NCBI RefSeq assembly: GCF_947331435.1
Contig: NZ_CAMZOF010000001.1
Location: 1,054,001-1,118,000, forward strand
Direction: 5' to 3'
Source: Pelagibius sp. Alg239-R121
GTDB taxonomy: Bacteria; Pseudomonadota; Alphaproteobacteria; Kiloniellales; Kiloniellaceae
Length of the DNA: 64,000 nucleotides
A program made the position numbers and the translations under genes. Below the pieces are notes generated by a model. That model made no database searches, was not told the origin of the DNA, and was given only the letters and a program-made list of their open reading frames with translations. This document shows positions 14,243 through 62,613 of the stretch, piece after piece; position 1 is the stretch's first letter; each line of letters starts with the position of its first letter.

Positions 14243-14355
14243 GAGTCTGATCGTTTTTCACTGAATCAGCAAGAAACGTGAAACAGCCTTTAAGTCGCGT
14301 GGTCCGAGTGATGTTTACGCTCTTTTGCCGTTCCGTTAAGAGCGATCGCACTCTA
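14243..14355 (-). repeat. Dispersed 113-bp two-hairpin element, copy A (upstream of rplU)
   Basis: The element begins with GAGTCTGATCG and ends with CGATCGCACTC; the ends are inverted repeats matching at 9 of 11 positions. Inside are two hairpins: CGTTT...AAACG with inner CTGAATCAG, and a 7-bp perfect stem CGCTCTT / AAGAGCG. The same layout, length and end sequences recur at 47801, 56096 and 62500. Strand is given by the downstream gene, rplU. Its right end forms the last codons and the stop of the hydrolase gene at 14336. Confidence 0.6.
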
Positions 14356-15430
14356 AATGTAGTATTTCCGTGACCCCTTCGGCCCCACCCATGCCCGATC
14401 CTGTCCCGGTGCTGTGTCTGGACTTTTCAAAGCCTTGCACCAACAAGTCGCCCTTGGAGGCGTTGGCGACCATAACAAGGCGTGTTGTGTCATTTAGAAT
14501 AGGCGGCTTCAGCCAGTCAAAGGCCGATTCGACCCCTTCACGCATGTCATTGGATTTTTGCCGTGCCAGCATGGCAGCGCTGCGAGAATCGCTGTTATCA
14601 CCCCGCGCGCTGGCCCTGGCCTGCCTGGATTGCCAGTGATTTCCGGCTGAAGCGGGCGATTCACGCACAAAAGCCTTGGTCTCGCTGCGTTCGATTACGC
14701 ACCCCTCATGGTCTTCGATGCCGCTCAGTAGAAAAATAGATGGAAGAGCGAGCTCAGTTTCCATTAGGCGGTGTTTAGCCTCTGCATAGTTCGTGCAGCT
14801 TTCAAAGACCTGCCGCAGCAGATGAGCCGGCGGGATGGCCTTGTTGTTCCAGACCCGCCTGCGGTTGATGAGCCAATCTAAAGGCATGATCGGCGTTCTG
14901 CGAGGCATCGGAGCTTGATGGATTGCAGCGGCGAAGCGTCCGGGCGCCATACCTTGGATTGAGCCGGTAAAGCCGGGCCAGGTCACATTGACCCAACGTC
15001 CCGCAGACGAATTACAACGGGCGGCAACCACATCAGCGCCCAATCTGTCGAGCGGCCAGTCCAGTACCCGGCGCAAAAGATTTCCGCCCTCCGGAGTCTC
15101 GGTCACGCCAGAGGTGCAGCCCCATTCGTAGTTGACGTTAAGAAAATAGATGCCTGGTGCGTCCAGCTTGGCATTCATTGCATCGATTTCGTCCAGGTAG
15201 GGATTACCTGAGCGCCGAAGCCAGCTCCGCGACAGCCGGTCGGCCTGTTTGACCACAAAATCCGGAAAATGTCCGCTGCCGGCGGCAAGCAGGGACTTGG
15301 CTCGTTCGATTTCGCGTTGGAACAGCTTCTCGGGCCACTGCGCGTCCAGATCGTGAACCGGGATCGCAGGCAGTCTTGTCACGTTCATTCCGCGCGCACT
15401 GGGTTTCAGAAGATCTGCGGCATCAGGCAT
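14336..15430 (-). CDS. N-terminal-nucleophile amide hydrolase, NAAA/acid ceramidase-like
   Basis: The 364-residue protein resembles eukaryotic N-acylethanolamine acid amidase and acid ceramidase, which cut fatty-acid amides after self-cleavage exposes a cysteine. The nucleophile segment is GCTSGVT with Cys105; Arg121 and Asp124 lie 16 and 19 residues later, the same spacing as the Cys-Arg-Asp group I recall for human NAAA. VTWPGFTGSIQGMAPGRFAAAI matches the next conserved block, and GNHWQSR (264-270) may supply the oxyanion Asn. No clear signal peptide is visible. The start could be the ATG at 15430 or 15388. Its last codons lie in repeat copy A. Fold call good, substrate unknown. Confidence 0.65.
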   Translation of the reverse strand: MPDAADLLKPSARGMNVTRLPAIPVHDLDAQWPEKLFQREIERAKSLLAAGSGHFPDFVVKQADRLSRSWLRRSGNPYLDEIDAMNAKLDAPGIYFLNVNYEWGCTSGVTETPEGGNLLRRVLDWPLDRLGADVVAARCNSSAGRWVNVTWPGFTGSIQGMAPGRFAAAIHQAPMPRRTPIMPLDWLINRRRVWNNKAIPPAHLLRQVFESCTNYAEAKHRLMETELALPSIFLLSGIEDHEGCVIERSETKAFVRESPASAGNHWQSRQARASARGDNSDSRSAAMLARQKSNDMREGVESAFDWLKPPILNDTTRLVMVANASKGDLLVQGFEKSRHSTGTGSGMGGAEGVTEILHLECDRS

Positions 15431-15599
15431 GTTGGAAACGGCTTGTCCTTGTCATGATTCTCGGGGTGTTGAGTCTTCTATATATAGACCTCGTGGATTT
15501 GCTGCCAGAAGGTGATTTGCCCGCTTGCAGGCGCGCAAGCGTTGGGCTAATGTCCCGCCGCTTCGCGGATCGGCCGTTTCGACCCAGGTTCCGCGGATC

Positions 15600-15689
15600 G
15601 GAGGGGTGCCGGAGTGGTCGAACGGGACGGTCTCGAAAACCGTTGTGCCTTTGCGGGTACCGTGGGTTCGAATCCCACCCCCTCCGCCA
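15600..15689 (+). tRNA. tRNA-Ser (anticodon CGA)
   Basis: The 90-base cloverleaf starts with GGAGGGG and ends with the matching CCCCTCC followed by GCCA, so CCA is encoded. The anticodon stem ACGGT / ACCGT encloses loop CTCGAAA, giving anticodon CGA (15634-15636), which reads UCG. The long variable arm (about 15644-15658) is the class II hallmark of serine tRNA. The T-loop is GGGTTCGAATCCC. Confidence 0.97.
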
Positions 15690-15778
15690 TATTCTTAGGC
15701 ACGCGAGGCAAGCAGTCGGCTCATCGCACAGGCATCGATTTTGAACATCGTTCGAGCCTATCCGCCAAGTAATTCCGT

Positions 15779-16735
15779 TCAATTGTGTCCGTTGGATTTT
15801 GCCCGAGCCCGGTATTCCCGCGGTGAGAGACTGAAGCGGTCTTTAAAAATCCGCGAAAAGTGCTGAAAATTGTTAATACCCCAGCGCATCGCGATGTCGC
15901 TGATGGAGAGTGACAATAGGCGTGGATCACCCAGATCTTGGGCGATTTTCTCCAATCGCGATCTGCGGATATAAGCTGCGATTGATGCGTCTTCCTTGGA
16001 AAAAATCTCGCTCAGACGCCGGATTGACATGCCCATTGCCGCCGCAACCATTCTTCTATCCAGATCCGGATTGCTGAGATTTTTGTGAACAAAAGCCTTT
16101 GCGCGAGCTATGAGCTGCTGTTCGGGCAGGCTCATTTCGTATTTTACGTTGTCGACGGATGCCAGACCTGCGGCGATGAGGTCGATGATCGCGTCCTGCA
16201 TGTGACCTTGAACGCTTCGGTCGGGCTGATTGATTGCTGCGGCGATTTGAGCGATGCCTTTGCCGACAAGCTGGCCGATCGCAGATTTACCGCTGACCGG
16301 CCGACCCGTTAGCAGGTCCGCTGAAGGCAGGCGCATCAAGAGCTCTGATCGTGGAACCTGAACCACCAGCTGTTCGAATCTGTCGGTCAGTTTTAGCGCG
16401 TAAGGCTCCAGGCTGCTGTAGAGCGCGAAGTCTCCGGGTTTTAGATCGGCTGCCCGCTCGAACTGCGAGACGGACGCCTCACTTTTCGTCTGCAGACTTA
16501 ACAGAAAGAAGGCGTCACAGGATCGGGCGATATCCCTTCTGCGGCGATAGACTCGATGGGAATCACCTGAAACGCGGGAAATGGAGAGCTTAGAAAGCCT
16601 TTCGAGCTTGATTTCACCGCGGAAACCCTCGCGCCGGTCATACTCGCAGCCGAGTTGGACGTAGGCGTCACAGACCGCGTCGCGCCAATAGGAAAAACGC
16701 TCGCCTTCTCTGACATCGCTGGTGCTGAACCGCAT
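15779..16735 (-). CDS. AraC-family transcriptional regulator
   Basis: The 318-residue protein has an N-terminal ligand-binding domain of the AraC-binding-like type (VREGERFSYWRDAVCDAY) and a C-terminal double helix-turn-helix (about 215-312; MSIRRLSEIFSKE, AMRWGINNFQHFSRIFKDRF and the signature end SPREYRARA). The start at 16735 is chosen for its GGAAAGG upstream; an in-frame GTG 36 bases further up is weaker. It is divergent from the nitrilase and aldoxime dehydratase genes. AraC-type activators of this kind commonly control such clusters, so it probably activates them in response to an aldoxime or nitrile. Confidence 0.88.
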   Translation of the reverse strand: MRFSTSDVREGERFSYWRDAVCDAYVQLGCEYDRREGFRGEIKLERLSKLSISRVSGDSHRVYRRRRDIARSCDAFFLLSLQTKSEASVSQFERAADLKPGDFALYSSLEPYALKLTDRFEQLVVQVPRSELLMRLPSADLLTGRPVSGKSAIGQLVGKGIAQIAAAINQPDRSVQGHMQDAIIDLIAAGLASVDNVKYEMSLPEQQLIARAKAFVHKNLSNPDLDRRMVAAAMGMSIRRLSEIFSKEDASIAAYIRRSRLEKIAQDLGDPRLLSLSISDIAMRWGINNFQHFSRIFKDRFSLSPREYRARAKSNGHN

Positions 16736-16893
16736 CGGCACTGCCTTTCCCCGGGGAAGCCTGAACTTCACCCTCGCTTTCGGCCCGAAGGCAAAAGACT
16801 AAGATCGAGAGCTCAAAAACACAAATTTTTCCGCCCGATTGCCTAAGCAGGCGGCGTGAAATCTGGAGAAACTGTCTATCGAACCAGTTTCCT

Positions 16894-16964
16894 CAGAGTG
16901 CGACCGGTCTTGACGGACGTAATCGAGAACGTGAACCGCCCTTCATTGGATGAACCAAAGGAAG
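16894..16964 (+). repeat. Short relative of the dispersed element, copy E (upstream of nitrilase)
   Basis: CAGAGTGCGACCGGTCTTGA at 16894-16913 matches the reverse complement of the distal end of copy C at about 18 of 20 positions. A hairpin follows with stems CTTC / GAAG and TTGG / CCAA (16941-16964), at the place where copies A-D have hairpin 1. The centre is shorter than in the other copies. It ends 18 bases before the nitrilase ATG. Confidence 0.4.
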
Positions 16965-16982
16965 AACTACTGGGAGCTAATC

Positions 16983-18011
16983 ATGCCTGAAGCCATCAAA
17001 GTTGCCGCCGTGCAGGCGGCGCCCAAATTCCTCGACCTCGACAAAACTGTAGAGAAAGCGATTGCCCTGATCGATGAAGCCGGGACTCAGGACGTCAAAT
17101 TGATCGCCTTCCCGGAAACCTGGATACCTGGCTATCCCTGGTGGATCTGGCTCGGTGCACCCGCCTGGGGCATGCAATTTGTCGGCCGCTATTTCGAAAA
17201 TGCGATCGAAGCCGGCAGCGCGCAGGACGATGCCTTGAAAGAGGCGGCGAAGCGCAACGGCATGCATGTTGTTATGGGAGTTTCGGAAAGAGCCGGCGGC
17301 AGTCTTTACATGGGACAGTGGCACTATGGTCCGGCGGGGGAGGTCGTGTCTCGCCGCCGTAAACTGAAGCCGACCCATGTGGAGCGGACCGTGTTCGGCG
17401 AAGGCGACGGCAGCGACATGCGGGTCAACGATACGGACATTGGCCGGATTGGCGCACTCTGCTGCTGGGAGCACCTGCAGCCCCTGACCAAATATGCCAT
17501 GTTTAGCCAGAACGAGCAGATCCACATCGCTTCCTGGCCCAGCTTCAGCCTTTATAAAGGCGCGGCCTATGCACTCGGTCCGGAGCTGAACACTTCGGCC
17601 AGCCAGATGTATGCAGCGGAAGGCCAGTGTTTTGTTCTGGCTTCCTGCGCGACCGTCTCCCAGGAAATGTACGAACAGCTCTGCGATACGCCCGACAAGC
17701 AACAGTTTTTGCAGCCGGGGGGAGGGTTTGCCCGCATTTTCGGACCCGACGGAGCTCCATTGGGAGAGCCACTTGGCGAAAGCGACGAGGGGTTGGTGAT
17801 CGCGGAAATCAATCTCGGCATGATCGCCTATGCCAAGGCGGCCGCCGATCCCGTCGGCCACTATTCACGACCCGACGTTTTTCGCTTGATGTTCAATCAA
17901 CGTCCCAATCCCGTTGTGATGTCTTTCGAAGAGGGAATTGCGCTTTCAACGGAGGCTGAAGAGATCACCACGGACAGTGGTGCCCAGGAGAGCAGCGATG
18001 CCACCGGATAG
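16983..18011 (+). CDS. Nitrilase (arylacetonitrilase-like)
   Basis: The enzyme hydrolyses a nitrile to its carboxylic acid and ammonia. The 342-residue protein has the full Glu-Lys-Cys set: Glu45 in FPETWIPGYPWW, Lys129 in RRKLKPTHVERTVFGEG and Cys161 in ALCCWEHLQPL. The motif GEGDGSD after the lysine block resembles arylacetonitrilases. The ATG at 16983 is chosen because GGGAG precedes it and conservation starts there; an ATG 33 bases earlier lies inside a hairpin loop. Its stop overlaps the start of the aldoxime dehydratase gene by 14 bases, so the two enzymes are made together. Confidence 0.93.
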   Translation: MPEAIKVAAVQAAPKFLDLDKTVEKAIALIDEAGTQDVKLIAFPETWIPGYPWWIWLGAPAWGMQFVGRYFENAIEAGSAQDDALKEAAKRNGMHVVMGVSERAGGSLYMGQWHYGPAGEVVSRRRKLKPTHVERTVFGEGDGSDMRVNDTDIGRIGALCCWEHLQPLTKYAMFSQNEQIHIASWPSFSLYKGAAYALGPELNTSASQMYAAEGQCFVLASCATVSQEMYEQLCDTPDKQQFLQPGGGFARIFGPDGAPLGEPLGESDEGLVIAEINLGMIAYAKAAADPVGHYSRPDVFRLMFNQRPNPVVMSFEEGIALSTEAEEITTDSGAQESSDATG

Positions 18012-19047
18012 TCACGACGACAGCCTTGACGAACGGCGCCATCCGCTGCGAATGCCGCCGGATTGGGTGCCGCCCTATCCTTCCTTCATGTCGGAACTGG
18101 GGGAGAATGCCTCTGCGGCCTCCATGGCGGTTATGGGTTGTCAGTTCGATGCGAAGGATCTGCTTCTTGCCGTTGAATTTGCATCTGGCCTTGCGGCCTT
18201 GATGCGGGAAACCGGTGTGGCAAACCACGTCGACCTCTCCGCTTGCGAATGCGACAGCGCGGGGCGCAGCCAGCTGGTCGCAACCGGCTATTGGCTGAAG
18301 TCTGGAGCATTGACGTCTTTCTTCGACCATCCGACCTTCAAAGCCTATTGGGCGCGGCACTCGCTTGATGGCTTGGGATATGGCGTTTTCCGAGAAGTCT
18401 TCGACATTCCAGTGGAACGTTTCGAGACTCTGCATTCCGATCCGACCCACCTTGTCGGCGTGGCTCATGCGCGTGAAGGGGTGAGCGATCCTATCGATCG
18501 GCATGCCTATTGGGGCAGTATGCGTGATCGGCTCCCTGCTTCGGCAGGAGATGCCTTAGATCCTTCAGGCAGTGTCGAAATCCTTGAGCAGGTCTCGAAC
18601 CGGATTGTCGTGCGACCGAATGAGAATGTCGCGGTGATTCGTTCCGGACAGGATCTTGGCGGTGTCGATGGGATCGAACGCCGTGAATACTACGCCGATG
18701 TTGAACCGGTCCTTCGCAAAGGAATGGCCTTTTTGCGCGATGAGGGCGAGGAGGTGAACTGCCTGGATTGCCGCTATATGGCCTTCGTCGACGATACCGG
18801 CAGCGCGACGGATCACACCTTCGGTCTGGCCTATTTTCGTTCTTTGGCCGATCTGGAACGCTGGTCGGAGCATCATCCGACGCACCTTGCCATCTTCAAC
18901 GCGTTCCTGGAGTTTGCGCCGCGCTATGGCCCTGCAATGAAGTCGCGTTACTGGCACGAAGTCTCAGTCCTGCCAGCGCACAGCCTGTTCGCCGAATATG
19001 TGAACTGCGCGCCGGGAACGGGCTTTCTGTCTGGTCTCGCAGATTAA
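17998..19047 (+). CDS. oxd: Aldoxime dehydratase (haem enzyme)
   Basis: The enzyme dehydrates an aldoxime (R-CH=N-OH) to a nitrile at a ferrous haem b. The 349-residue protein matches the phenylacetaldoxime dehydratase family along its length: RMPPDWVPPYPSF, VATGYWLKSGALTSFFDHPTF, and the C-terminal FRSLADLERWSEHHPTHLAIF and SRYWHEVSV, where the haem and catalytic histidines of characterised enzymes fall. The ATG at 17998 has AGGAG upstream and lies inside the nitrilase gene. Together the pair converts aldoximes to acids, a pathway known from nitrile-degrading Rhodococcus, Bacillus and Pseudomonas. It ends convergently with the M20 gene, overlapping by four bases. Confidence 0.92.
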   Translation: MPPDSHDDSLDERRHPLRMPPDWVPPYPSFMSELGENASAASMAVMGCQFDAKDLLLAVEFASGLAALMRETGVANHVDLSACECDSAGRSQLVATGYWLKSGALTSFFDHPTFKAYWARHSLDGLGYGVFREVFDIPVERFETLHSDPTHLVGVAHAREGVSDPIDRHAYWGSMRDRLPASAGDALDPSGSVEILEQVSNRIVVRPNENVAVIRSGQDLGGVDGIERREYYADVEPVLRKGMAFLRDEGEEVNCLDCRYMAFVDDTGSATDHTFGLAYFRSLADLERWSEHHPTHLAIFNAFLEFAPRYGPAMKSRYWHEVSVLPAHSLFAEYVNCAPGTGFLSGLAD

Positions 19048-20270
19048 TTCTGATCGAGTTCGCAGATCTCCAGGATCGCGATCAGATAGAGCCGCACCGC
19101 ATCCAGGTAGTCACGGAGCTCCACACGCTCGTCGGGCATGGTATTATACTTACCGCCAGGGCCGCAGACGATACCTTCCATGCCGAGCATACGGTAAAAA
19201 TGCGCTGCATCGGTGCCGTAGAATGCCGGTGGACGTACGGCCCCCGTCGGTTGTTCTTCACCTCGCAGGTTGCGGTACGCACTGTTCAAGGTCTTCACGA
19301 TGCGAGCGTCAGGCGCCACTTCGAAAGGCGACATGCTCGGCCGTTTGGTCTTGGCTTCCTGAGCGTAAGCCTTGGTTTTGAGACCTGGGTATTCGGCTTC
19401 CAGTCTGTCCAGTTCGACCCGGAAGTCAGCGAGCACCGACTCCCGGCTTTGCGAGGGAGCGTAGCGGGCGGTGCCGCTCAGCAGCGCAAAGTCGGCGATC
19501 TGCGGCGGTCGCCATTCATGGAATTCCCGGGACAGGGCGCCGCGGAAGACGCCAACATTGGCGCGATTGACTGAAAGATGCAGATCATTGGCTGCGCCGG
19601 AAAAGGTCATGGCATTGATCCGTGGCACCAGCGCAGCAGCAGCGGCGACCGCATCGACGGCCTCTTCGCGCTTTGAAATATGGCGGGTGATACCTTCAAG
19701 TTCGATAATAAAATTAAAGGCGCCGGCATGCAGGGTGAGGGCCGCCAGGTCGGTGGGTTCGCAGTTGATGAAATAGTCGGCTTTAACCCCCTGTTCAATA
19801 GCACGAACCGTGCCCACGCCGCCTTGAAGCTCACCCACCACGAAGGTAAGCACGACATCGCCCTTCAGTTTGACCCCTGATTGCACCAGTGTGCGCACTG
19901 CGCAGAAAAAAGCCGCATCACCGGCTTTCATGTTGGAAACACCGATGCCGTAAATACAGTCGTTCTCCACCAGCCCGCCCCAGGGATCGACAGTCCAGCC
20001 TTCGGTGACTGGATTGGTGTCCAGGTGCCCGTTGAACAGCAGGCTTTTACCGTTGCCAGTACCGCGATAGGTGCCGATGGCGTTCACCCGCTGATCGACA
20101 ACCGGCTGCAATTCAGCCTCTAAGCCCAGCGTCTGCATCTGATCGCGCATAAAGGCGGCAAGGGCGCGTTCGCCTTCGGTCTCAGTGTAGCTTTTGTGAC
20201 GCACCATCTGCGCCAGAAAATCGACACAGGCGGACTCGTCGATTGTTTCCAGTATCTCCTGGTACTTCAT
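19044..20270 (-). CDS. M20 metallopeptidase, ArgE/DapE type (distal gene of peptide operon)
   Basis: The 408-residue zinc hydrolase should cleave an amide bond in a peptide or N-acyl amino acid. The metal-site motifs FNGHLDTNPVTEGW and GIGVSNMKAGDAAFFCAV are clear. In the segment that normally reads DEExGG, this protein has VVGELQGGVGT, so only one of the two usual adjacent glutamates is present; I recall this form from other M20 proteins. The start is the ATG at 20270, which overlaps the stop of the ABC ATPase (ATGA). It closes the operon that begins at 27133. Confidence 0.85.
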   Translation of the reverse strand: MKYQEILETIDESACVDFLAQMVRHKSYTETEGERALAAFMRDQMQTLGLEAELQPVVDQRVNAIGTYRGTGNGKSLLFNGHLDTNPVTEGWTVDPWGGLVENDCIYGIGVSNMKAGDAAFFCAVRTLVQSGVKLKGDVVLTFVVGELQGGVGTVRAIEQGVKADYFINCEPTDLAALTLHAGAFNFIIELEGITRHISKREEAVDAVAAAAALVPRINAMTFSGAANDLHLSVNRANVGVFRGALSREFHEWRPPQIADFALLSGTARYAPSQSRESVLADFRVELDRLEAEYPGLKTKAYAQEAKTKRPSMSPFEVAPDARIVKTLNSAYRNLRGEEQPTGAVRPPAFYGTDAAHFYRMLGMEGIVCGPGGKYNTMPDERVELRDYLDAVRLYLIAILEICELDQN

Positions 20271-22366
20271 CGCGGCGTCTCCTTGGGTGTTTTCATTTCC
20301 GTTGTTTGGTGTGCCGTCCAGATTGGCGGTTCGGCCTGTAGGATGTCTTGTGCGAGATGACAACGCAGCCAGTGGCTATCGCCGAATTCCTGGATGGGTG
20401 GTGTTTGCGAATCACAGCAGCCTGCAATCCGTTTTGGACAGCGACTCTCAAAGGGGCAACCGATGGTTTCTTCGGTACGCGTGGGCATGACGCCACCAAG
20501 CCGCACACGCCGCACGTCGATCTCCGGGTCCAAGGTGGGCGCAGAACTGAGTAAGGCCTGAGTGTAGGGATGATAAGGCGGTGCGGTGAGATGACCTGCG
20601 GCGGAAAGCTCGACGATTTGTCCCAGATACATGGTGGCGACGCGGTCGGCGATGTAGCGCAGCAGATTGAGATCATGGGTAATGAAGAGATAGGCAATGC
20701 CGAGGCGCGCCTGAATTTCCTTTAGAAGATTGACGATCGAGGCCTGGACGGAGGCATCGAGACCGGAAGTGATTTCGTCGCAGATGATCACTGCAGGCTC
20801 GGCCGCGACCGCCCGGGCGATCGCAACGCGCTGCTTCTCGCCGCCGGAAAGTTCGTGGGGATAGCGCTTCGCGTAGTGTGATGGCAGCCGCACCTGGGTC
20901 AGAAGCTCCTCGATCCGCGTATCGAGTCCGCTGCCTGTGAGGTTCTTATAGAGTTTCAGGGGGCGACCCAGAATTGCGCCGACCTTTTGACGGGGATTAA
21001 GTGAAGAGTCCGGGTTCTGAAAGATCATCTGTACGCGGCTGCGATACTGCTTATCCATTGCGCCCGGACCCGTGATCTCACAGCCATCGAAGCGGATCGA
21101 TCCTTCGAAGTCACGCAGGCCGCTCAACGCGCGAGCCAAGGTCGATTTTCCGCAACCCGATTCGCCAACCAGGCCCAAAGTTTCGCCGAATTGTAGCGCC
21201 AGATCCACGCTGCTGACGGCATGGACAATCCGGGCCTTGCCGCCAGTGAGGCGACTTAGAAGGCTCCAACGTCCGATCCGCACAGATAGGTTTTCAACTG
21301 TCAGTACAGGCGTGTTGGAACTCTGTGCTTTTTTCGAAGAACCGGAGACCACTTCATTGGTCTGAGAGCTCATGTCCAATGGGAGGACGTCGTGCCATCT
21401 TAGGCAGGCTGTCCAATGACCGCTGTCTTCCGTCAGGGTAACCGCGTGCTCACGGCAGGCGTCAGTTGCAAAGGGGCAGCGTGCTTCGAAAACACACGGC
21501 GGCTTTGGACCCTGCCTGTCTGGCAGCGGGCCTGGAAAGGTCAGGAGTGTCCCGCCTCGTTCGTTTTGCGACGGTCGCGGCAGGCTGGCCAGCAAGGCAC
21601 GCGTGTAGGGATGGCGCGGTTCCCGAAACAGAGTATCAACAGGGCTGTCTTCGACGATACGCCCGGCGTAGATCACGGCGACCCGATGCGCAATCTCTGC
21701 TACGGTCCCCAAATCGTGGGAGATGAAGAGGGCGGAAACGCCGGTTTCTTCCTGCAGCCGCCGGAACAGATCGAGGATATTGACGGCGGTTGTGGCGTCG
21801 AGCGCGGTGGTGGGTTCGTCGAAGAGAATCAGATCCGGACTGCAGGCGAAGGCAATTGCAATGACGATCCGCTGTTTTTCTCCGCCGGAAACTTCGTGGG
21901 GATACTTTTCCAACATTAGATCCGGATCCGGGAGACCAACCATTTCCAAAAGCCGGTGGGCTTCCCTGATTGCCTCTTCGCCGGTTAATCCGCGATGACA
22001 CGCCAAAACCTCAGCAATGTGCGCGCCAAGCGTCAGAGTGGGATTGAGCGATCCGCCAGGGTCCTGGAACACCATGGCCACTGTTTTGCCACGGATGTTT
22101 TCCAGCGACTGCTGTGCCATGCCGATCAAATCATTGCCTGACAGCAGAATGTTACCGCTCTCCAGGGCCCGGCTTTGCAGGCTGCGCATGATAGCGTAGG
22201 CAAGTGAGCTTTTGCCCGAACCTGACTCGCCGACCAAACCCAAAATCTCACCTTCACCGATGGTCAGGTCGATTTGTTCCAGAACCCGAAATGGCTCGCC
22301 TGCAGTTTCGTAGGACAGGCTGTAGTTGCCGACCTGCAAGACGGGATTTTGCGCCGGATCCGTCAT
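20267..22366 (-). CDS. Fused double ATPase of a dipeptide/oligopeptide importer (DppD-DppF type)
   Basis: The 699-residue protein carries both nucleotide-binding domains of an Opp/Dpp importer in one chain. Domain 1 (about 1-320) has Walker A GESGSGKSS, signature VSGGEKQR and Walker B LILFDEPT; domain 2 (about 345-690) has GESGCGKST, LSGGEKQR and VIICDEIT. Each ends in the cysteine-rich oligopeptide/dipeptide C-terminal region (PCVFEARCPFATDAC and CPFESRCPKRIAGCC), which binds an iron-sulphur cluster in some members. Fused forms are common in alphaproteobacteria. The start overlaps the upstream permease stop by four bases. Confidence 0.93.
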   Translation of the reverse strand: MTDPAQNPVLQVGNYSLSYETAGEPFRVLEQIDLTIGEGEILGLVGESGSGKSSLAYAIMRSLQSRALESGNILLSGNDLIGMAQQSLENIRGKTVAMVFQDPGGSLNPTLTLGAHIAEVLACHRGLTGEEAIREAHRLLEMVGLPDPDLMLEKYPHEVSGGEKQRIVIAIAFACSPDLILFDEPTTALDATTAVNILDLFRRLQEETGVSALFISHDLGTVAEIAHRVAVIYAGRIVEDSPVDTLFREPRHPYTRALLASLPRPSQNERGGTLLTFPGPLPDRQGPKPPCVFEARCPFATDACREHAVTLTEDSGHWTACLRWHDVLPLDMSSQTNEVVSGSSKKAQSSNTPVLTVENLSVRIGRWSLLSRLTGGKARIVHAVSSVDLALQFGETLGLVGESGCGKSTLARALSGLRDFEGSIRFDGCEITGPGAMDKQYRSRVQMIFQNPDSSLNPRQKVGAILGRPLKLYKNLTGSGLDTRIEELLTQVRLPSHYAKRYPHELSGGEKQRVAIARAVAAEPAVIICDEITSGLDASVQASIVNLLKEIQARLGIAYLFITHDLNLLRYIADRVATMYLGQIVELSAAGHLTAPPYHPYTQALLSSAPTLDPEIDVRRVRLGGVMPTRTEETIGCPFESRCPKRIAGCCDSQTPPIQEFGDSHWLRCHLAQDILQAEPPIWTAHQTTEMKTPKETPR

Positions 22367-24133: not shown

Positions 24134-24164
24134 TTAGATTTCCACGATTACAAGCGGAGGGCAG

Positions 24165-24190
24165 GGGGGACCAATAACTGGAAGTCCCCC
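24165..24190 (-). promoter_or_regulatory. Intercistronic hairpin after the peptide-binding-protein gene
   Basis: A 7-bp stem (GGGGGAC at 24165-24171, GTCCCCC at 24184-24190) lies in the 90-base gap between the binding-protein stop and the first permease start. There is no T-run. Such hairpins protect upstream mRNA and raise the amount of binding protein over permease in other ABC operons. Confidence 0.55.
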
Positions 24191-24223
24191 TCAACGATAG
24201 CCCAGAGCGAACTACTCTAAGGG

Positions 24224-25795: not shown

Positions 25796-25828
25796 AAGAG
25801 CCTCCTTCTGTATGTTCGGTTATGACGA

Positions 25829-27133: not shown

Positions 27134-27177
27134 ACCTGTGGCCTCCCAGGGTCGATTGGCTTCGTGCGCCAATTCCG

Positions 27178-27200
27178 TTTTCTATAAACTATATAGAAAA
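27178..27200. promoter_or_regulatory. Perfect 9-bp palindrome, candidate GntR operator
   Basis: TTTTCTATA (27178-27186) and TATAGAAAA (27192-27200) are exact inverted repeats around AACTA. They lie between the divergent M20 and GntR genes, 45 bases from the M20 ATG and 129 bases from the GntR ATG. AT-rich palindromes of this size are typical operators of GntR/HutC proteins, so autoregulation and control of the peptide operon are plausible. Confidence 0.5.
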
Positions 27201-27328
27201 GTATCGGATTGTGGAGTAGAGTCAAGTCCGATAGAGCGTGGTGGAATCAGATGCCGGTTGAGTCTTGGTGTGACTCTGACCCGGCTGGAGCGTTGTATGG
27301 AAGGTTGTTCAAAGCGGTGAAAAGGTCG

Positions 27329-47800: not shown

Positions 47801-47912
47801 AGAGTCTGATTGTTTTCTTTCGATCAAAGAAAACGTAACCAGTCTTTCCTCAGAACGTATCAGAGGGCGATTTGCGCTTTTGACCGTTTCCGTCAAGGAC
47901 GACCGCAGTCTG
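47801..47912 (-). repeat. Dispersed two-hairpin element, copy B (upstream of boxC)
   Basis: The element starts AGAGTCTGATTG and ends near CCGCAGTCTG. Hairpin 1 is a perfect 9-bp stem (GTTTTCTTT 47812-47820, AAAGAAAAC 47826-47834). Hairpin 2 pairs TTGAC (47880-47884) with GTCAA (47892-47896). The centre holds ATCAGAGGGCGATTTGCGC, identical to copy C. It ends 36 bases before the boxC ATG. Confidence 0.65.
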
Positions 47913-50892: not shown

Positions 50893-50910
50893 AGCGTTTC
50901 CTCCCGCTTT

Positions 50911-51378: not shown

Positions 51379-51410
51379 GTCTCTTTCCTCTCTCACCTTT
51401 GGTGGAACGG

Positions 51411-53834: not shown

Positions 53835-53838
53835 CAGC

Positions 53839-54711: not shown

Positions 54712-54861
54712 GTCACTCTCTCAAAATTCCAACGGACGATTCTGTTCGGCTTCGTATCTTGAGTCTTTGTCGAAGATTGAACTGGATTTAACCAGCCGCA
54801 AACATGCCGGCCCGGTATTGCGTGCTTCATATCTTATCACAGTGGGGTGCGTAAAAACGCA

Positions 54862-54891
54862 TCCGGCCGGAGACCTGCGCCCCCGGCCGGA
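54862..54891 (-). promoter_or_regulatory. Intercistronic hairpin after the benzoate-unit binding-protein gene
   Basis: TCCGGCCGG (54862-54870) pairs with CCGGCCGGA (54883-54891) around a 12-base loop, 17 bases past the stop. A second small stem with a TTTTT run follows on the minus strand (GCGTTTTTACGC). It may partly terminate and keep the binding protein in excess. Confidence 0.65.
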
Positions 54892-54907
54892 AGAAAAAGG
54901 CGGTCGA

Positions 54908-56077: not shown

Positions 56078-56095
56078 CTCTCTCTCCTCCCTGTT

Positions 56096-56208
56096 AGAGC
56101 CTGATCGCTTCACTTTGAATCAAAGCAAGGCGTGAATCAGCCTCTATTTAATCTATCAGAGGGCGATTTGCGCTTGCGATTGAAGCAATCAAGAGCAGTC
56201 GCACTCTG
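56096..56208 (-). repeat. Dispersed two-hairpin element, copy C (upstream of benzoate binding protein)
   Basis: It starts AGAGCCTGATCGC and ends GTCGCACTCTG. Hairpin 1 includes CTTTG / CAAAG (56113-56125), hairpin 2 GATTG / CAATC (56178-56190). The centre ATCAGAGGGCGATTTGCGC is shared exactly with copy B. It ends 18 bases before the ATG, next to the ribosome site. Confidence 0.65.
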
Positions 56209-56239
56209 AGCCTGAGCATTTTATTGTTCTTATAGTCTA

Positions 56240-56310
56240 CACGTTACATGCATTTTGATACATGTCAAATTCAATATTTTGTGTTTTATGTAATATAATG
56301 CATGTTTTAT
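56240..56310 (-). promoter_or_regulatory. Candidate promoter/operator of the benzoate transport unit
   Basis: Two ATGCAT sites (56248, 56298) lie in a strongly AT-rich stretch; the second is in AATATAATGCAT, identical to the site upstream of boxC. The arrangement, two sites 41-50 bases apart then a repeat element then the start codon, is the same in both units. Confidence 0.45.
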
Positions 56311-56468
56311 GCTTTCAAACCATACAGTGTCTGTATCTGTACGAAGATACGCTGACGACGAGCGCGGTCTGGTCGTCACCTCACGATTTGAGTGTGAGTT
56401 CGAGGCTCAAGGTGAATGCGTTTTGTTTGTGGAATGCGGTGTCTAATGCCGTTTTGCTGCGCGCGAAA

Positions 56469-57470
56469 TCAGTCGAATTCATCCAGGCGCACCGGTCGGT
56501 TTTCTGAAACCGAGCGGACAACGGCCTCGGCAATCTTCTGTGCGGCGAGTCCGTCTTCGAGTGTCGGCAGGAATGATGTGCCGGTTTTGATGGCTTCAAT
56601 AAAAGCGGCTAATTCAATCGAGTAGCTCTCCCGAAACCTCTCGAGCCAGCTTTGGTGAAGGCCGTTTTCAACGATTTGAGGTCCGGAAGTAAAGCGCAGG
56701 TTGCCAGCCTGGGGATGGCGGGACTCGAGCATGCCGCCGGAGCCAAAAGCTTCTATCCGTTCGTCGCAACCGTAGTTGGTTTGTCTGCTGAAATCGAAAT
56801 GGCAAAAGGCACCACCGGCAAAACGCAATATTATCATTGCGGTGTCGAGGTCGCCGTGATCGGCAAGTTTTTTCTCGATCCGGCAGGCACCCGTAGCGAA
56901 GACCTCAACCGCTTCGTCATCGGCGATCCAACGGGCCAAATCATAGTGGTGTGTGCCTTTTTCTCTTAGCATGCCGCCTGATCCCGGCACATTCTCCAGC
57001 TTAGGCAATTTTTCGCTGCGCGAAGTGAGATGCAGCATATCCATGCGACCAATGCGTCCTTCGCGGACTTGGTTCCACAGCGCCCGGTGATTGCGATCGA
57101 AGCGGCGATTGAACCCTGTAACTGCGAGGACGCCAGCATTGCGGGCAACTTCGATGCAACGCCGAGCATTCGCCAAGTCCTCGGCGATGGGTTTTTCACA
57201 AAGAATCGCTTTGCCCGACCGCGCCGCAGCGATCACAAATTCGGCGTGGGTTTGGGTATTGGAACCGATGATGACCGCGTCTACCGATGGATCATCGAAG
57301 ACTTGCGCGGGGTCTGTACAAGGTTTCCCACCGCAGGTCTGCGCCAAGGCCTCGGCCGTTTCGGCGTGAATGTCAACGATGTGGGTCAATTGGGCGTTGT
57401 CGGACTGTGCGATGTTTGCGGCATGAACCCTGCCGATCACACCCGCGCCGAAAAGACCGATATTGATCAT
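56469..57470 (-). CDS. Gfo/Idh/MocA dehydrogenase, inositol 2-dehydrogenase-like
   Basis: The 333-residue protein has the Rossmann motif GLFGAGVIGRVHAANIA, the EKP motif in ILCEKPIAEDL and the catalytic GTHHYDLARW. The pattern is close to IolG (myo-inositol 2-dehydrogenase), but related enzymes act on other sugars and cyclitols. It follows the second LivG gene by 56 bases and may be co-transcribed with that importer, which normally would carry amino or aromatic acids rather than inositol. Confidence 0.85.
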   Translation of the reverse strand: MINIGLFGAGVIGRVHAANIAQSDNAQLTHIVDIHAETAEALAQTCGGKPCTDPAQVFDDPSVDAVIIGSNTQTHAEFVIAAARSGKAILCEKPIAEDLANARRCIEVARNAGVLAVTGFNRRFDRNHRALWNQVREGRIGRMDMLHLTSRSEKLPKLENVPGSGGMLREKGTHHYDLARWIADDEAVEVFATGACRIEKKLADHGDLDTAMIILRFAGGAFCHFDFSRQTNYGCDERIEAFGSGGMLESRHPQAGNLRFTSGPQIVENGLHQSWLERFRESYSIELAAFIEAIKTGTSFLPTLEDGLAAQKIAEAVVRSVSENRPVRLDEFD

Positions 57471-57526
57471 GGCCGGACTCCTGAAAACAGAAATTCTATG
57501 GTAGCCCGTCGGTGAAAGACGTTCCG

Positions 57527-58327
57527 TCAGCCCGCCATGGCGGCACGAACTTCCTCGTCATCCATTTCACGGCCCAGATAAGCCTCAATGACAGCGTGGT
57601 CGTCGCGCACATGCGCTGGACTGCCTTCTGCGATTTTCTCTCCGTGATCCAGAACGGTCACCCGTTCGCAGGTGTCCATGACCACCTTCAGGATGTGTTC
57701 AACCACGATCACCGTCAGGCCATAACGCTTTTTCAGCTGCACCATGATACTCATCAGATTGTCAACGTTCACGGGCGAGAGGCCTGCGGCGGGTTCGTCG
57801 AGCATCAGCAATTTTGGTTTCATGGCAATGCCACGGCCCAGGGCCAGGAGCCTTCTCTGTCCGATCGACATTTCCGACGCGGGCACTTCGGCGAAATCGG
57901 CCAAGCCGATGAAGGACAACAGCTCCATCATCTCGTCGCGCAGGCGCTTTTCTTCGGCGGCAACGCGGCCGATGCCGAACACCGCTGCAAAGGGGCCGTA
58001 CTGCACGTGGCAATGCTGACCGATCATGAGGTTTTCCAGCACGGTCATTTCAGTGAACATACGTAGCAGCTGAAAGGTGCGCGCAACGCCCTTGGCGGCG
58101 ATATCGTGCGGCTCCCAATTGGTGACGTCGGCGCCGTCGAACCTGACCGAACCGCTGTCGCATTTGTAGACACCGGAAATGAGGTTGAAGAGCGTGCTCT
58201 TGCCGGATCCGTTGGGGCCGATCAAACCGCGGATCTCTCCGTCCTCCACCTCCAGGCTGACGTTCTTGATCGCTTGCAGACCGCCGAAGCTCTTGCAGAG
58301 GGAGTCGACTTGTAGAAGCGTGGTCAT
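57527..58327 (-). CDS. ABC ATPase LivG type (second Liv importer)
   Basis: The 266-residue ATPase has Walker A GPNGSGKST, signature MSIGQRRLLALG, Walker B LLMLDEPAAGLSP and H-loop VIVVEHILKVV. It follows the LivM gene by three bases. The short conserved C-terminal YLGREMDDEEV is common in the LivG group. Confidence 0.93.
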   Translation of the reverse strand: MTTLLQVDSLCKSFGGLQAIKNVSLEVEDGEIRGLIGPNGSGKSTLFNLISGVYKCDSGSVRFDGADVTNWEPHDIAAKGVARTFQLLRMFTEMTVLENLMIGQHCHVQYGPFAAVFGIGRVAAEEKRLRDEMMELLSFIGLADFAEVPASEMSIGQRRLLALGRGIAMKPKLLMLDEPAAGLSPVNVDNLMSIMVQLKKRYGLTVIVVEHILKVVMDTCERVTVLDHGEKIAEGSPAHVRDDHAVIEAYLGREMDDEEVRAAMAG

Positions 58328-58330
58328 GGT

Positions 58331-59383
58331 TCAGGACTCCCCGCTCTTTGCGGCTGCGGCTTCGGCGCGTTTCTGCTCCGCGGTCTTTTCGCGCGCCGCC
58401 ACGAAACGCTTGCTCACGAAGTAGCGGTCGATGATGCCGCCGATGCCTTTCGGCATGAAGAGCACTGTGCCGACGATCACTAGGCCGAACATCAGCAGCT
58501 GATAGAAGTAAAAGTCGCGGGTCAGGTCGGCGATGATCGTGACCAGGATCGCACCGATGATGCCGCCCCAGATGTTACCGATGCCGCCGAGCACGACCAT
58601 CAGCAACAGAGTGACCATCTCGATGACGGTGAAGTTGTTGGGATGCACATAGCCTGGCACCATGTGCGCGAAAAGGCTTCCGGCCAGCCCGGCGTAAACC
58701 GCACTCAGCATGAAGGCGATCAGCTTGTAGCGCCGCACGTTCACGCCGGTGGCGGCAGCGGAGAGCGCATCTTCGCGCACCGCCATGAAGGCGCGCCCGG
58801 TCGCCGAGCGCAGGATCGCGAAAGAAGCGTAGACTGCGATCAGCATGAAAGGCATGACCAGATAATAGTAGCGGAAATAGTCGTAGAAAACGAAGTTGCC
58901 GATGGATGGCGGGGCGATCCCGCCCAGGCCCGAGGCGGAGCCCAGATAGTTTGTGACCCGGATATAGATCTCGACCGATTGCGCAAAGCCCAAAGTGGCG
59001 AGCGCGAGATAAGCGCCTTCGAGCCGGAACGAAGGAATGCCGACCAGGGCCCCGGCCAGCATCGTGACGGCGATCGCGGCCGGCAGGCAGAACCAGAAAG
59101 GCACTCCGAACTTGACCGAGAGAACACCCGAGGTATAGGCGCCGATCGCATAAAGTGCGACGTGGCCTACCGTGACCTGTCCGCAAAAGCCTTTAACGAT
59201 ATTCAGGCCGGTCGCCAGGATGATCATGATGCAGATCACATTGAGCAGATAGATCTGATAGTCGTTCAACGCCAGCAGCGGTAGCGGCAACAAAAGAACA
59301 AAGGAAGCAAACCAGGGCATCAGGGGATGGATGCGCTTCAAGGCGTCCAACGATGCGGTACTCTTTTGGACCAGTGCGTTCAT
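58331..59383 (-). CDS. ABC permease LivM type (second Liv importer)
   Basis: The 350-residue permease has about ten hydrophobic helices and LivM signatures (ATGLNIVKGFCGQVTVGHVALYAIGAYTSG, VLGGIGNIWGGIIGAILV). The lysine/alanine-rich end is unremarkable. It lies downstream of the binding-protein gene, from which a hairpin separates it. Confidence 0.93.
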   Translation of the reverse strand: MNALVQKSTASLDALKRIHPLMPWFASFVLLLPLPLLALNDYQIYLLNVICIMIILATGLNIVKGFCGQVTVGHVALYAIGAYTSGVLSVKFGVPFWFCLPAAIAVTMLAGALVGIPSFRLEGAYLALATLGFAQSVEIYIRVTNYLGSASGLGGIAPPSIGNFVFYDYFRYYYLVMPFMLIAVYASFAILRSATGRAFMAVREDALSAAATGVNVRRYKLIAFMLSAVYAGLAGSLFAHMVPGYVHPNNFTVIEMVTLLLMVVLGGIGNIWGGIIGAILVTIIADLTRDFYFYQLLMFGLVIVGTVLFMPKGIGGIIDRYFVSKRFVAAREKTAEQKRAEAAAAKSGES

Positions 59384-59447
59384 GAACCTGTTCGCTGCCT
59401 TTGCGTTCGAAGCTTATTTTTGGATGAGGATTGTTGAAGAGGCAGAG

Positions 59448-59472
59448 GAGGCCGCTCTGACTGAACGGCCTC
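59448..59472 (-). promoter_or_regulatory. Intercistronic hairpin after the second Liv binding-protein gene
   Basis: GAGGCCG (59448-59454) pairs with CGGCCTC (59466-59472), 16 bases past the binding-protein stop and 65 bases before the LivM start. No T-run follows. Confidence 0.55.
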
Positions 59473-59487
59473 GCCCTGATTTCCCGC

Positions 59488-60693
59488 TTACTTCTCGAGC
59501 CCGAACTCAACCGGCATGGTGACGCGGTCGAGAATGCCCAGTTCAAAGTCCTCGCCGCCCTTCTTGTAGCCGATCAGGACCACCGTCCGGTTGCCGTCCC
59601 GGCACTCCGGCGTCGGGTCGGCGCAGAAGGAGATCGGGCCGGAGGCCAAACCCTGGTAGTCCTTCACGCCAGCGATGGCATCGCGGATCGCAGTCCGGTC
59701 GGCCTTTAGGTTGTCGTCGTCCAGCTTCAGATCGGCATTGCGCAGGGCGATCTCGACGATGCGCACCAGATCGTAGGCCTGGCTGAAGTCATGATCGACC
59801 TTGGAGATGCCGTAGCGCTGCTTGACCATGGAGTTGAACAGCTTGGCGATCGGTCGGTCGTCCGAGTCCGAATAGGCCGCGGTATAGAACACGCCCTTGA
59901 TGGCGTCGCCCGCCATGGCCGGAACCGGCGCGTTGGAAGCCACCGAGTTGGCCAGACGCTTGACCGATGCGGGAAGCCCTACTTCGTAGGACTGCACCAG
60001 CGCACGCGCCATCGGCTCCTGCAGGGCCGCGATGAAGATGGCATCGGGGCTTAGCGCCTTGATCTTCAGCAGATGCGAACGGAAGTCGATTTCCTTTTCC
60101 TGCACCTGCGCGGAATAGACCGGATCGACGCCGTAAAGCTCTTTCATCTGAGACTGCAGACCCTCGGCATCGGAAACCGCCGCGGCATCGGATGCATAGA
60201 GATAGGCAATCTTCTTGCCGACCTTGTCACCGACGTACTTGGCGACGACGCCTTTGTAGTAGCGCGCCGAAATTGGCACCCGGAAAACCCAGGCGGAGCC
60301 CTTTTGCGTGATTTGATGGTTGGTCGAGTGCGGGATGATCTGCGGAACTTCCGCCTGCGCCGTCACGTCGACGATCGGCAGGGACACGGAGGAACAGGTC
60401 GATCCGATCAGGAGGTGAACTTTCTCCTGGTGGATGAACTTGTTGGCGTTGGCGACGCCTTTATCCGATTTGCACTCGTCGTTGAGCAGCGAAAGCTTGA
60501 TGGTATGGCCGTTGATGCCGCCTGCGGCGTTGATGGCGTCGAATTCGTCCTGCACCATCTCACCGTACTTCTGGCCGTTCTCCGAGATCATGCGCATCGT
60601 GGCGCCGACCCGGATCTCAGCCGCGGACAGGCTGTTCAATGCGACCGAGGACGCCAGTGCGGCGGCGGTCAATCCCAGGATGTGTCTTTTCAT
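59488..60693 (-). CDS. Liv/HAAT-type substrate-binding protein (second importer)
   Basis: The 401-residue protein has a Sec signal (about 1-25, ending LSAAEIRVG) and the Peripla_BP_6 fold (MVQDEFDAINAAGGINGHTIKLSLLNDECKS, HLLIGSTCSSVSLPI). Two cysteines near the C-terminus (SFCADPTPECRDG) may form a disulphide. The gene lies between LivH and LivM rather than at the start of the operon. Substrate unknown. Confidence 0.9.
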   Translation of the reverse strand: MKRHILGLTAAALASSVALNSLSAAEIRVGATMRMISENGQKYGEMVQDEFDAINAAGGINGHTIKLSLLNDECKSDKGVANANKFIHQEKVHLLIGSTCSSVSLPIVDVTAQAEVPQIIPHSTNHQITQKGSAWVFRVPISARYYKGVVAKYVGDKVGKKIAYLYASDAAAVSDAEGLQSQMKELYGVDPVYSAQVQEKEIDFRSHLLKIKALSPDAIFIAALQEPMARALVQSYEVGLPASVKRLANSVASNAPVPAMAGDAIKGVFYTAAYSDSDDRPIAKLFNSMVKQRYGISKVDHDFSQAYDLVRIVEIALRNADLKLDDDNLKADRTAIRDAIAGVKDYQGLASGPISFCADPTPECRDGNRTVVLIGYKKGGEDFELGILDRVTMPVEFGLEK

Positions 60694-60746
60694 TTTCTCT
60701 TTCCTCCCTTGATTATGGCCCTTGAAATTGGATCTCCCTATCGTCT

Positions 60747-61631
60747 CTATGCCTTTACCTTCGCGGCAACGCCGAGCAGTCCTGTCGGCCTGACCATCAA
60801 GACGAAGATCAGAAGCAAAAAGGCATAGATGTCTTTGTGACTGCCCGAAATGTATGCGGCGCCAAGGGTCTCGAAGACACCGACCATGAGGCCGCCGAGA
60901 ATGGCGCCGGGCAATGATCCGAAACCGCCGACCACGGCGGCTGCGAAGGCCTTGATGAGCATCAGGTATCCCATCTCGACCTGCACATAGTTGATCGGTG
61001 CGATCAGGACGCCGCCCGCGGCGGCAAGCGCGCAGGCCACCCCGAAGATCAGAGAAATCATCAGCGGCACGTTAACGCCCATCAGATAGGCGATGTCCTT
61101 GTTGGCCGCGACGGCGCGGATCGCGAGTCCCAGTTTGGTGTGCTTGAGAAAGAGGTGCAGGACCGCCATCAGGGCGACCGAGACCACCAGGATCCAGACA
61201 TAGCTTTGCGGCAGGGTGATGGTGCCCAGCTCGACCGGCATGCCGAAATTAACGTGCATAGGCCGGCCGTTTGCGCCCCAGATCAGAAAGGCGATGTTCT
61301 GCAGGATAATCGCCATGCCGAAACCGCAGATAATCATGCCCATGCCGGCGACGGTGTAGCCGCCACCCTGCGAGGTGAGTCGCCGATAGAACACGCGTTC
61401 GATTATCACGCCCATGATGCCGGCCAGGATCATCGCGACAAAAAGGGTGATGGGATAATTGAAACCGGCCTCATCGTACAGCACCAAACCGAAGAAGGCG
61501 CCGAACATGAAGATTTCGCCATGGGCGAAATGCACGATGTCGAGGCCGGAATAGATCAGGGAAATGCCGAGCGCCACCAGGCCGTAGAGAATGCCTATCG
61601 ATAAGCCGACGATCAGAAAATCATATAACAT
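60747..61631 (-). CDS. ABC permease LivH type (second Liv importer)
   Basis: The 294-residue permease has the family segments GISLIYSGLDIVHFAHGEIFMFGA and AAVVGGFGSLPGAILGGLMVG and about eight hydrophobic helices. It lies between the LivF gene (111-base gap) and the binding-protein gene. Confidence 0.93.
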   Translation of the reverse strand: MLYDFLIVGLSIGILYGLVALGISLIYSGLDIVHFAHGEIFMFGAFFGLVLYDEAGFNYPITLFVAMILAGIMGVIIERVFYRRLTSQGGGYTVAGMGMIICGFGMAIILQNIAFLIWGANGRPMHVNFGMPVELGTITLPQSYVWILVVSVALMAVLHLFLKHTKLGLAIRAVAANKDIAYLMGVNVPLMISLIFGVACALAAAGGVLIAPINYVQVEMGYLMLIKAFAAAVVGGFGSLPGAILGGLMVGVFETLGAAYISGSHKDIYAFLLLIFVLMVRPTGLLGVAAKVKA

Positions 61632-61742
61632 TCGTTGCGCCGTTCCTGCTGGCCTCTTATTGCAGAGACCTCTTTCGTTCCATGTACCGTTGCCCGGTTT
61701 GCCGCTGCGTCTGTCTTAAGAGCGGCTTGCCGGATAACTCTC

Positions 61743-62486
61743 TTAGCGATGTAGAGCCGGACTTTCGACTTCCGCCACCGTCCCGCCCAGATAGGCGAGG
61801 CGAACCGCGTCGTCGTCGATCATGTCCTTTGCGTCGCCTTCCAGGTGAATTTTGCCGTCGTGAATCACGTAACCGTAACTCGCGAGAAGCAAAGCCATCC
61901 GCACGTTCTGCTCGACCACTAGAATGGTCATGCCCAGGTCACGGCTGATGCGGTTGATCTGCTTGAAGATGTCCAGGACGACTTTCGGCGCGAGTGCGGC
62001 TGAGGGTTCGTCCAGCATAATCATTTTGGGCTTTGCCATCAGGCCCCGGCCGACCACCAGCATCTGCACCTGACCGCCTGACAACAGGCCCGAGAGCTGT
62101 TTGCGCCGCTCCTTCAGGATTGGGAAGAAGCCGTAGACCTTTTCCAGATCCGCGCGTACGCCGGCCCGGTCCGATCGCGAAAAGGCGCCGAGCATCAGGT
62201 TCTCTTCGACCGTCATACCGGGATAGGAATCCTTGCCCTGGGTGACCTGCACCAGTCCTGCACGCACGATTTCATGGGGCCGTTTATTGTGGATGGGTTC
62301 GCCATCAAACAGGATTTCGCCGCTCCAGACAGGAAGCAGTCCGGAGATCGCCTTCAATAGTGTCGATTTGCCGGTGCCGTTGCCGCCAAGCAGCGCAATG
62401 ATCGCGCCGTCGGGGACGGTCATATCAATACCGCGCAGAATTTTCAGTTTACCGTATCCGGCTTCGACGCCTTTAAGGGCGAGCAT
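61743..62486 (-). CDS. ABC ATPase LivF type (second Liv importer, first gene)
   Basis: The 247-residue ATPase has Walker A GGNGTGKST, signature LSGGQVQM, Walker B MIMLDEPSAALAP and H-loop LVVEQNVRMAL. The ATG at 62486 has GGGAGGAATTGG directly upstream and begins the conserved LALKGVEAGYGKL; the frame further upstream lies in repeat copy D. It heads the unit livF-livH-binding protein-livM-livG-dehydrogenase. Confidence 0.93.
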   Translation of the reverse strand: MLALKGVEAGYGKLKILRGIDMTVPDGAIIALLGGNGTGKSTLLKAISGLLPVWSGEILFDGEPIHNKRPHEIVRAGLVQVTQGKDSYPGMTVEENLMLGAFSRSDRAGVRADLEKVYGFFPILKERRKQLSGLLSGGQVQMLVVGRGLMAKPKMIMLDEPSAALAPKVVLDIFKQINRISRDLGMTILVVEQNVRMALLLASYGYVIHDGKIHLEGDAKDMIDDDAVRLAYLGGTVAEVESPALHR

Positions 62487-62499
62487 CCAATTCCTCCCG

Positions 62500-62613
62500 A
62501 GAGTCCGATCGTTTTCTCTGAACCAGGCGAAAACGCGACCCAGATCCTTCACCATAATTCTCTACAGGGTGATTCGAGCCTCCGGACGCCTTGATCCGGA
62601 AGAGCCACGCTCA
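62500..62613 (-). repeat. Dispersed two-hairpin element, copy D (upstream of second livF)
   Basis: It starts AGAGTCCGATCG. Hairpin 1 has a 7-bp stem CGTTTTC (62510-62516) / GAAAACG (62529-62535); hairpin 2 pairs TCCGG (62581-62585) with CCGGA (62596-62600). The central block CTACAGGGTGATTCGAGC is a diverged form of the B/C centre. It ends 13 bases before the livF ATG. Confidence 0.55.

Follow-up and report, generated by a model that had tools for sequence, protein, structure and literature searches.

What is the two-hairpin repeat that stands ahead of several genes in one stretch of the Pelagibius sp. Alg239-R121 genome, and how did it come to stand there? The stretch, here ‘the window’, is 64,000 nucleotides long and covers bases 1054001-1118000 of contig C1 in a source genome (G000) of 8.02 Mb and 48 contigs. 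The initial annotation, made from sequence alone, described four copies (A–D) and a shorter relative on the other strand (E), and read them either as a structured leader RNA or as a repeat resembling a miniature inverted-repeat transposable element (MITE) that settles in leaders. We consider it probable that the repeat is a MITE moved in trans by IS630-family transposases, with some copies here perhaps recruited as leaders. The mobile nature of this dispersed, patchy repeat is well supported and IS630 as its mover fairly supported, while a leader function is only suggested by the sequence comparisons below.

The repeat is ~113 bp long and consists of two ~50-nt hairpins (HP1 and HP2) placed tail to tail with a linker of ~13 nt. 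In order from HP1, it reads AGAG-T-N2-GAT-CG, upper stem, loop, upper stem′, CG-TGA-ATC-N2-C-CTCT and linker, followed by a second hairpin of like plan reversed. In either hairpin, the lower stem of 4 + 5 pairs is interrupted by a T.C or G.A mismatch, the inner arm carries a 3-nt bulge, and an upper stem completes the structure. The two internal hairpins with changed bases that had been noticed in the window are present in every full copy, although what had been described are only the upper parts of stems that continue down to AGAG/CTCT. The similar outer ends, with AGAGT-N2-GATCG common to the copies, and the exact central block of B and C, 22 bases long, were likewise found as described.

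The repeat is not confined to the window. A DNA search with copy B found 40 places in the genome. A covariance model (R1) was built from 19 aligned copies (alignment A1) with the structure set by hand, a search that the initial annotation had itself proposed. R1 recovers A–D at full length on the minus strand and E, weak and truncated, on the plus strand, and yields at least 150 matches at E ≤ 1 in the 8.02-Mb genome (best 5e-26), so chance is excluded. It also matches 14 of 41 genomes (the source and 40 relatives), including all three congeners (G001–G003) with 55–66 rows each, and 14 of 289 genomes across Alphaproteobacteria. R2, a model from a diverse set, matches 34 of 385 genomes. Near-identical copies occur in G025 and in G314, and a Rhizobium member lies at 1617 places in 343 plasmid records, 339 of them from Rhizobium. 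Phage records searched with the G314 element gave no match, nor did plasmid records searched with the G023, G274 and G002 elements.

The stems covary. In the own-genome alignment, 18 of 40 pairs are changed on both sides vs 11.1 in shuffles, none of 500 shuffles reaching 18. In a set from other genomes (A4; 124 rows in both orientations, 112 distinct), 97.2% of cells are paired, and covariation is 0.713 vs 0.179 when shuffled and at most 0.117 when slid; A4 was found by and fitted to the structure, which biases these values in its favor, but the stems are nonetheless plain in the raw sequences. In G023, the 18 copies read are all 113 bp long and represent several subfamilies, whose stems are unrelated. 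Across Alphaproteobacteria, AGAG, GAT and the bulge bearing GANTC are nearly fixed while the stems change completely. GANTC is located at the bulge of the inner lower stem, in most cases of both arms. Among 57 distinct copies of other genomes, TGAATC and GATTCA are each exact in 51, and the inner stretch contains some GANTC in all 57 copies for HP1 and in 56 for HP2. Two of ten further members, found with a second model, lack it in both arms (L404) or in one (L405), so GANTC is nearly, not strictly, fixed.

Identity between the outer ends is 0.74–0.98 at positions 1–5, 0.16 and 0.04 at positions 6–7, and 0.75–0.93 at positions 8–12; past position 12 it varies from 0.12 to 0.79, mostly about half. 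The outer ends are thus alike over AGAG(C)-N2-GATCG, and the stems of the two hairpins do not match each other. Because arms match within each hairpin and not between ends, pairing in the upper stems would be explained by the fold rather than by a transposase that reads the ends.

Mobility is seen at individual sites. The homologous sites of B and C are shorter by 109–110 bp in all three congeners and are therefore empty sites; that of C is CTAGGGAGG in G001 and G002, not in G003. The junction consensus is CT/AGAG...CTCT/AG, with slashes at the ends of the repeat. For junctions and placement we used 104 copies of this genome, namely R1 matches of at least 56.8 bits minus two opposite-strand rows for places already counted, and left weaker R1 rows out of the placement counts. 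Exact CTAG is found at the left junction of 22, at the right junction of 26 and at both junctions of 7 of these. The 57 distinct copies of other genomes have it at both junctions in 35 cases, at one in 16 and at none in 6. Single hairpins between CTAG sites also occur in G025 with one common hybrid junction, five of them in the loci read (L240, L242, L246, L250 and L254), which suggests that a single arm alone can probably move. When a larger, autonomous element with the exact outer end of G025 and G314 was sought, all 77 pattern matches turned out to be the repeat itself, a broken or single-hairpin form of it, or chance; 30 loci plus 38 matches in 34 loci were read, and the other nine were judged as model rows (two also read).

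A search of 14 carrier genomes found IS630 transposases (PF13358) in 11, in 10 of them above cut-off. A TAGAG...CTCTA pair spaced 1051–1093 bp apart surrounds the transposase at 12 of 25 IS630 loci, or 11 of 23 distinct elements; since the end search required TAGAG, the evidence lies in the uniform spacing and in the bases beyond TAGAG. In two genomes, G030 and G314, the IS630 ends extend to NNGATCG or NNGATGA, as in the repeat, and the end motif is that of the repeat in these same genomes. The G030 end is CTAGAGCGGGATCG, the other end being off the contig, and the two G314 ends are TAGAGCCGGATGA and TAGAGCGGGATGA, of the pattern TAGAGC(C/G)GGATGA. The complete genome G025 (C1; L347, L357, L364, L369, L372 and L375) carries two IS630 kinds, one represented by three and the other by five matches that score equally or nearly so, and the pairs compared are 99.9–100% identical, making these elements a likely source of active transposase.

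We conceived that an IS630 transposase would pair the outer ends TAGAGC-N2-GAT and insert the repeat at the TA of CTAG. As the element begins with AG and ends with CT, CTAG would be re-formed on both sides, so that an existing TAG stop codon, or the AG within a Shine-Dalgarno sequence, would be preserved. If so, insertion into CTAG may do little harm, since the stop codon and the ribosome-binding site re-form. IS870 is a member of the IS630 family. Reportedly, it requires a CTAG target to create a stop codon (Fournier 1993). In this genus, a fraction of copies would then be retained immediately ahead of the ribosome-binding site and be part of the transcribed leader, where the folded RNA would be under some selection; as a first guess, the fold may stabilize the 5′ end of the mRNA. 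If this account is right, it is a natural case of a transposable element giving many genes one folded leader, and offers many replicate loci for effects of a 5′ hairpin pair on mRNA.

The last steps separate this account from that of a plain MITE without leader function, whose positions would result from target choice and loss of harmful insertions and whose wobble would result from transcription-linked mutation. We regard the plain MITE as a serious possibility, though not a likely one. The CTAG consensus suits it well. The position of copies relative to start codons, which the initial annotation had marked for checking, suits it less. Genes were called with our own caller, based on codon usage and start choice and blind to genes cut by an insert. 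No copy of the 104 lies wholly inside a called gene; 66 lie between co-directed, 26 between divergent and 8 between convergent genes, and 4 at edges. After array neighbors were dropped, 99 copies remained, 39 of which end within 40 nt of a start codon and 7 of which share a stop codon. Start choice biased by the ribosome-binding-site score was rejected as a cause, as 36 of 85 are still within 40 nt without that score. Outside copies, CTAG occurs 212 times in 464 kb (the window plus 20 scattered 20-kb stretches). Of these sites, 111 are within genes, 19 coincide with stop codons, 13 lie no farther than 40 nt from a start and 69 are elsewhere. Compared with 13 of 101 noncoding CTAG sites, the leader share of the copies is raised (odds ratio 4.4, p 2e-5). 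Leader placement thus exceeds the supply of CTAG targets in this genome, which rejects target supply alone as its cause here and speaks against the plain MITE.

Orientation also speaks against it in this genome. For the 87 copies that face a start codon, orientation to the downstream gene is 65 sense and 22 antisense by the model, and 64 and 23 when only sequence is used. That the bias stems from the way orientation was called was rejected, as sequence-only orientation agrees in 99 of 99 copies. In the congeners, 13 of 34 copies, or 9 of 19 at one copy per locus, are within 40 nt of a start.

Other lineages favor the plain MITE and count against leaders, as stop-codon sites are frequent there: 11 of 16 distinct copies in G314 (17 rows, L230 repeating L253), 7 of 20 in G023 and G030, and 6 of 13 in G025 (15 rows, two of them not copies). 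A gene cut by an insert would be called as ending there in one frame of three, but convergent neighbors in 13 of the 17 G314 rows argue against cut genes behind the stop-codon placement. Of nine annotated copies examined in Rhizobium, seven share exactly 2 bases with the 3′ end of a deposited gene, the overlap that a TAG stop within CTAG would give; since five of these had been chosen for the gene under the match, this is not a rate, and one further record showed no genes there. The TAG stop itself was read in two of the seven. Of the two readings in the initial annotation, the MITE is therefore the better supported, and the leader reading stands for position and sense in this genome; against it, the congeners lack the sense bias and other lineages often have copies at stop codons. 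The tendency to leader positions in the genus looks like partial recruitment.

Whether the fold is kept as RNA was approached through wobble pairs. A transcript that has to fold would tolerate G-U, but not A-C, on the transcribed strand. Among copies of this genome within 100 nt of a start, counted on the 88 of 104 that are in the alignment, G-U:A-C is 149:70 in sense and 25:36 in antisense orientation (label permutation p 0.0002). At 40 nt, the asymmetry has a permutation p of 0.019 and a Fisher p of 0.07. In the congeners, the ratios are 25:9 sense and 19:42 antisense, or 20:7 and 10:19 at one copy per locus (p 0.004). On the gene-sense strand, the count is 86:74 in unpaired columns vs 185:95 in paired columns (p 0.011), which makes transcription-linked mutation alone a weaker but conceivable cause.

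Orthologous copies in the congeners provide a second measure, from 17 pairs in 9 loci that are not independent. Paired sites diverge by 10.7% vs 23.3% for unpaired sites, which speaks against the plain MITE. Double changes number 26 vs 7.8 expected, and 13 of them keep the pair.

Several observations weigh against an IS630-moved MITE with recruited leaders. Empty site B is without CTAG in all three congeners and site C in G003, the flanks having diverged, and most single junctions in this genome deviate from exact CTAG. No copy-specific target duplication of 2–9 bp was found beyond the CTAG consensus, but duplication of the TA of CTAG would leave no variable one. The genome itself has one short IS630 match, and the carriers G002, G083 and G222 gave no IS630 transposase match, so the mover there was lost, was missed or is another enzyme. 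Thirteen of the 25 IS630 loci are without the ~1.05-kb pair, some for lack of sequence, and most IS630 ends agree with the repeat over TAGAGY only. The G030 end was assigned from its position on a contig that stops just past the transposase. As for leaders, the congeners show no sense bias (13 sense and 12 antisense), as the plain MITE would have it, and transcription-linked mutation could yield part of the wobble asymmetry. Nine of the 26 double changes in orthologs break the pair and 4 are unpaired in both, and single changes break the pair 59 times and keep it 23 times. Pairs are thus often broken, again in line with the plain MITE, and the counts indicate that stems decay in place with some constraint.

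An improbable alternative is that the repeat belongs to a REP/BIME/REPIN family whose mover is a RAYT (Y1 HUH) transposase that acts on single-stranded hairpins. In its favor are the fixed bulge of the hairpins, the occurrence of inverted pairs and tandem arrays, and the CT adjoining each end. Y1 genes were searched in the source genome, the 40 relatives and ten carriers, and are found in 11 of 23 carriers, including 9 of the 14 R1-positive genomes of the 41 (the source genome, with two genes, among them). They are missing in the other 12 (5 of 14 plus 8 of 10, G025 being in both), including G314 and G025 with their near-identical copies. Moreover, a scan of 32 loci, 31 with Y1, found a weak copy in one (L155), RAYT proteins from 16 of the 31 Y1 loci matched none of the collected loci, and the repeat has no GTAG tag. 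With Y1 missing from these carriers and Y1 loci nearly free of copies, a RAYT mover was judged unlikely. Incidentally, the tandem array at C2:328773-329339 of the source genome (L046) comprises five head-to-tail copies with a period of ~114 bp, followed by an opposite-facing match at 329415-329503. The two RAYT-like Y1 genes of this genome (L031 and L032) have no repeat copy within 1.5 kb.

Leader position, sense orientation and covariation would suit a family of true cis-regulatory leader RNAs, either riboswitch-like or protein-binding, that had spread through duplication and descent. Such a family is very improbable, as sites B and C are empty in three congeners, copies lie at stop codons in other lineages, the downstream genes in the window are unrelated, and Rfam scans gave a tRNA only in the window and no match above gathering score at 8 copy-bearing loci.

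A bolder extension of the IS630-moved MITE is doubtful but conceivable. The repeat would be a class-wide element selected for shape and not sequence, with AGAG, GAT and the GANTC bulge kept and the stems free as long as they pair. It would repeatedly install two-hairpin leaders upstream of Shine-Dalgarno sequences, the transcribed strand being held in the fold, and GANTC would couple movement to CcrM cell-cycle methylation.

The window is a dense spot, with five copies in 64 kb vs a single copy over 57 bits, plus six weaker matches, across the 20 scattered 20-kb stretches. Four of the five end 13–36 bases before a start codon, as had been noted, A being the exception. The genes behind B–E are mutually unrelated (Table 1). 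Copy A overlaps with its HP1 end the last 19 bases of a minus-strand gene, 14336-15430, which matches C45 acyltransferases below the cut-off. A tRNA match (15600-15686, plus strand, 58.6 bits, Rfam) lies among overlapping open frames in the interval from copy A to copy E.

Table 1 Repeat copies in the window and the hairpins of copy C
Feature	Position	Strand	Evidence	Gene context
Copy A, full length	14242..14354	-	R1 81.4 bits	~188 nt upstream of L21 gene
Copy E, truncated (HP1 and part of the rest)	16895..16970	+	R1 29.1 bits, weak	Directly precedes carbon-nitrogen hydrolase gene (PF00795); 18 nt to start codon (12 by model end)
Copy B	47801..47911	-	R1 81.6 bits	36 nt upstream of boxC start codon (TIGR03222, E 9e-283)
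Copy C	56096..56207	-	R1 97.1 bits	18 nt upstream of start codon of periplasmic binding protein gene, adjoining its Shine-Dalgarno sequence
Hairpin 1 of copy C	56158..56207	-	Structure counted; coordinates inferred from ~50-nt arm	
Hairpin 2 of copy C	56096..56145	-	Structure counted; coordinates inferred from ~50-nt arm	
Copy D, most diverged of the four full copies	62500..62613	-	R1 59.0 bits	13 nt upstream of start codon of LivF-like ABC ATPase gene (PF00005)

The initial annotation recognized no named family, which is probably wrong. One candidate is the Rhizobium-specific intergenic mosaic elements (RIME), which are ~108 bp long and have two palindromes. The repeat perhaps resembles RIME, to which it is likened by description only. 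RIME (Osteras 1995) is mentioned in the accessible parts of PMC2245857 and PMC2873474 and, like the member found here, occurs in Rhizobium.

Other families share single traits with the repeat, as far as the available text of the sources goes. As proposed for the repeat, RUP of pneumococcus has a TA target and ends in common with an IS630 element (PMC2229807). Like the repeat, REP, BIME and REPIN have palindromic units in inverted pairs and arrays; papers on these families include PMC3116915 and PMC3733652. However, REP and REPIN are linked to RAYT, carry a GTAG or CGTC tag and have smaller hairpins, whereas the repeat ends in AGAG/CTCT and occurs without Y1 in the carriers mentioned above. Other bacterial repeats form one stem of their 5′ and 3′ ends (PMC2229807), unlike the two hairpins with non-matching stems found here. 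A literature search, with most subscription journals outside it, found no statement naming IS630 as the mover of CIR (introduced below) or RIME.

The closest match in anatomy is CIR, the Caulobacter CcrM-associated intergenic repeats (Chen and Shapiro 2003), as described in the accessible portions of PMC2229807 and PMC10969869. Likened by this published description and not by sequence, the repeat is probably of the CIR type. Both are ~110 bp long and intergenic in alphaproteobacteria, with two long inverted-repeat arms, a linker and TA at the ends. Both contain a GANTC (CcrM) site, here in nearly all copies; CIR has it at or in a terminal loop of one arm, and the repeat at the inner lower-stem bulge, in most cases of both arms. 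The mechanism of CIR mobility is given as open in the part of PMC2229807 consulted, whereas for the repeat we propose IS630; if this is true, CIR-type repeats, described in 2003 with that mechanism left open, gain a candidate transposase and a target site.

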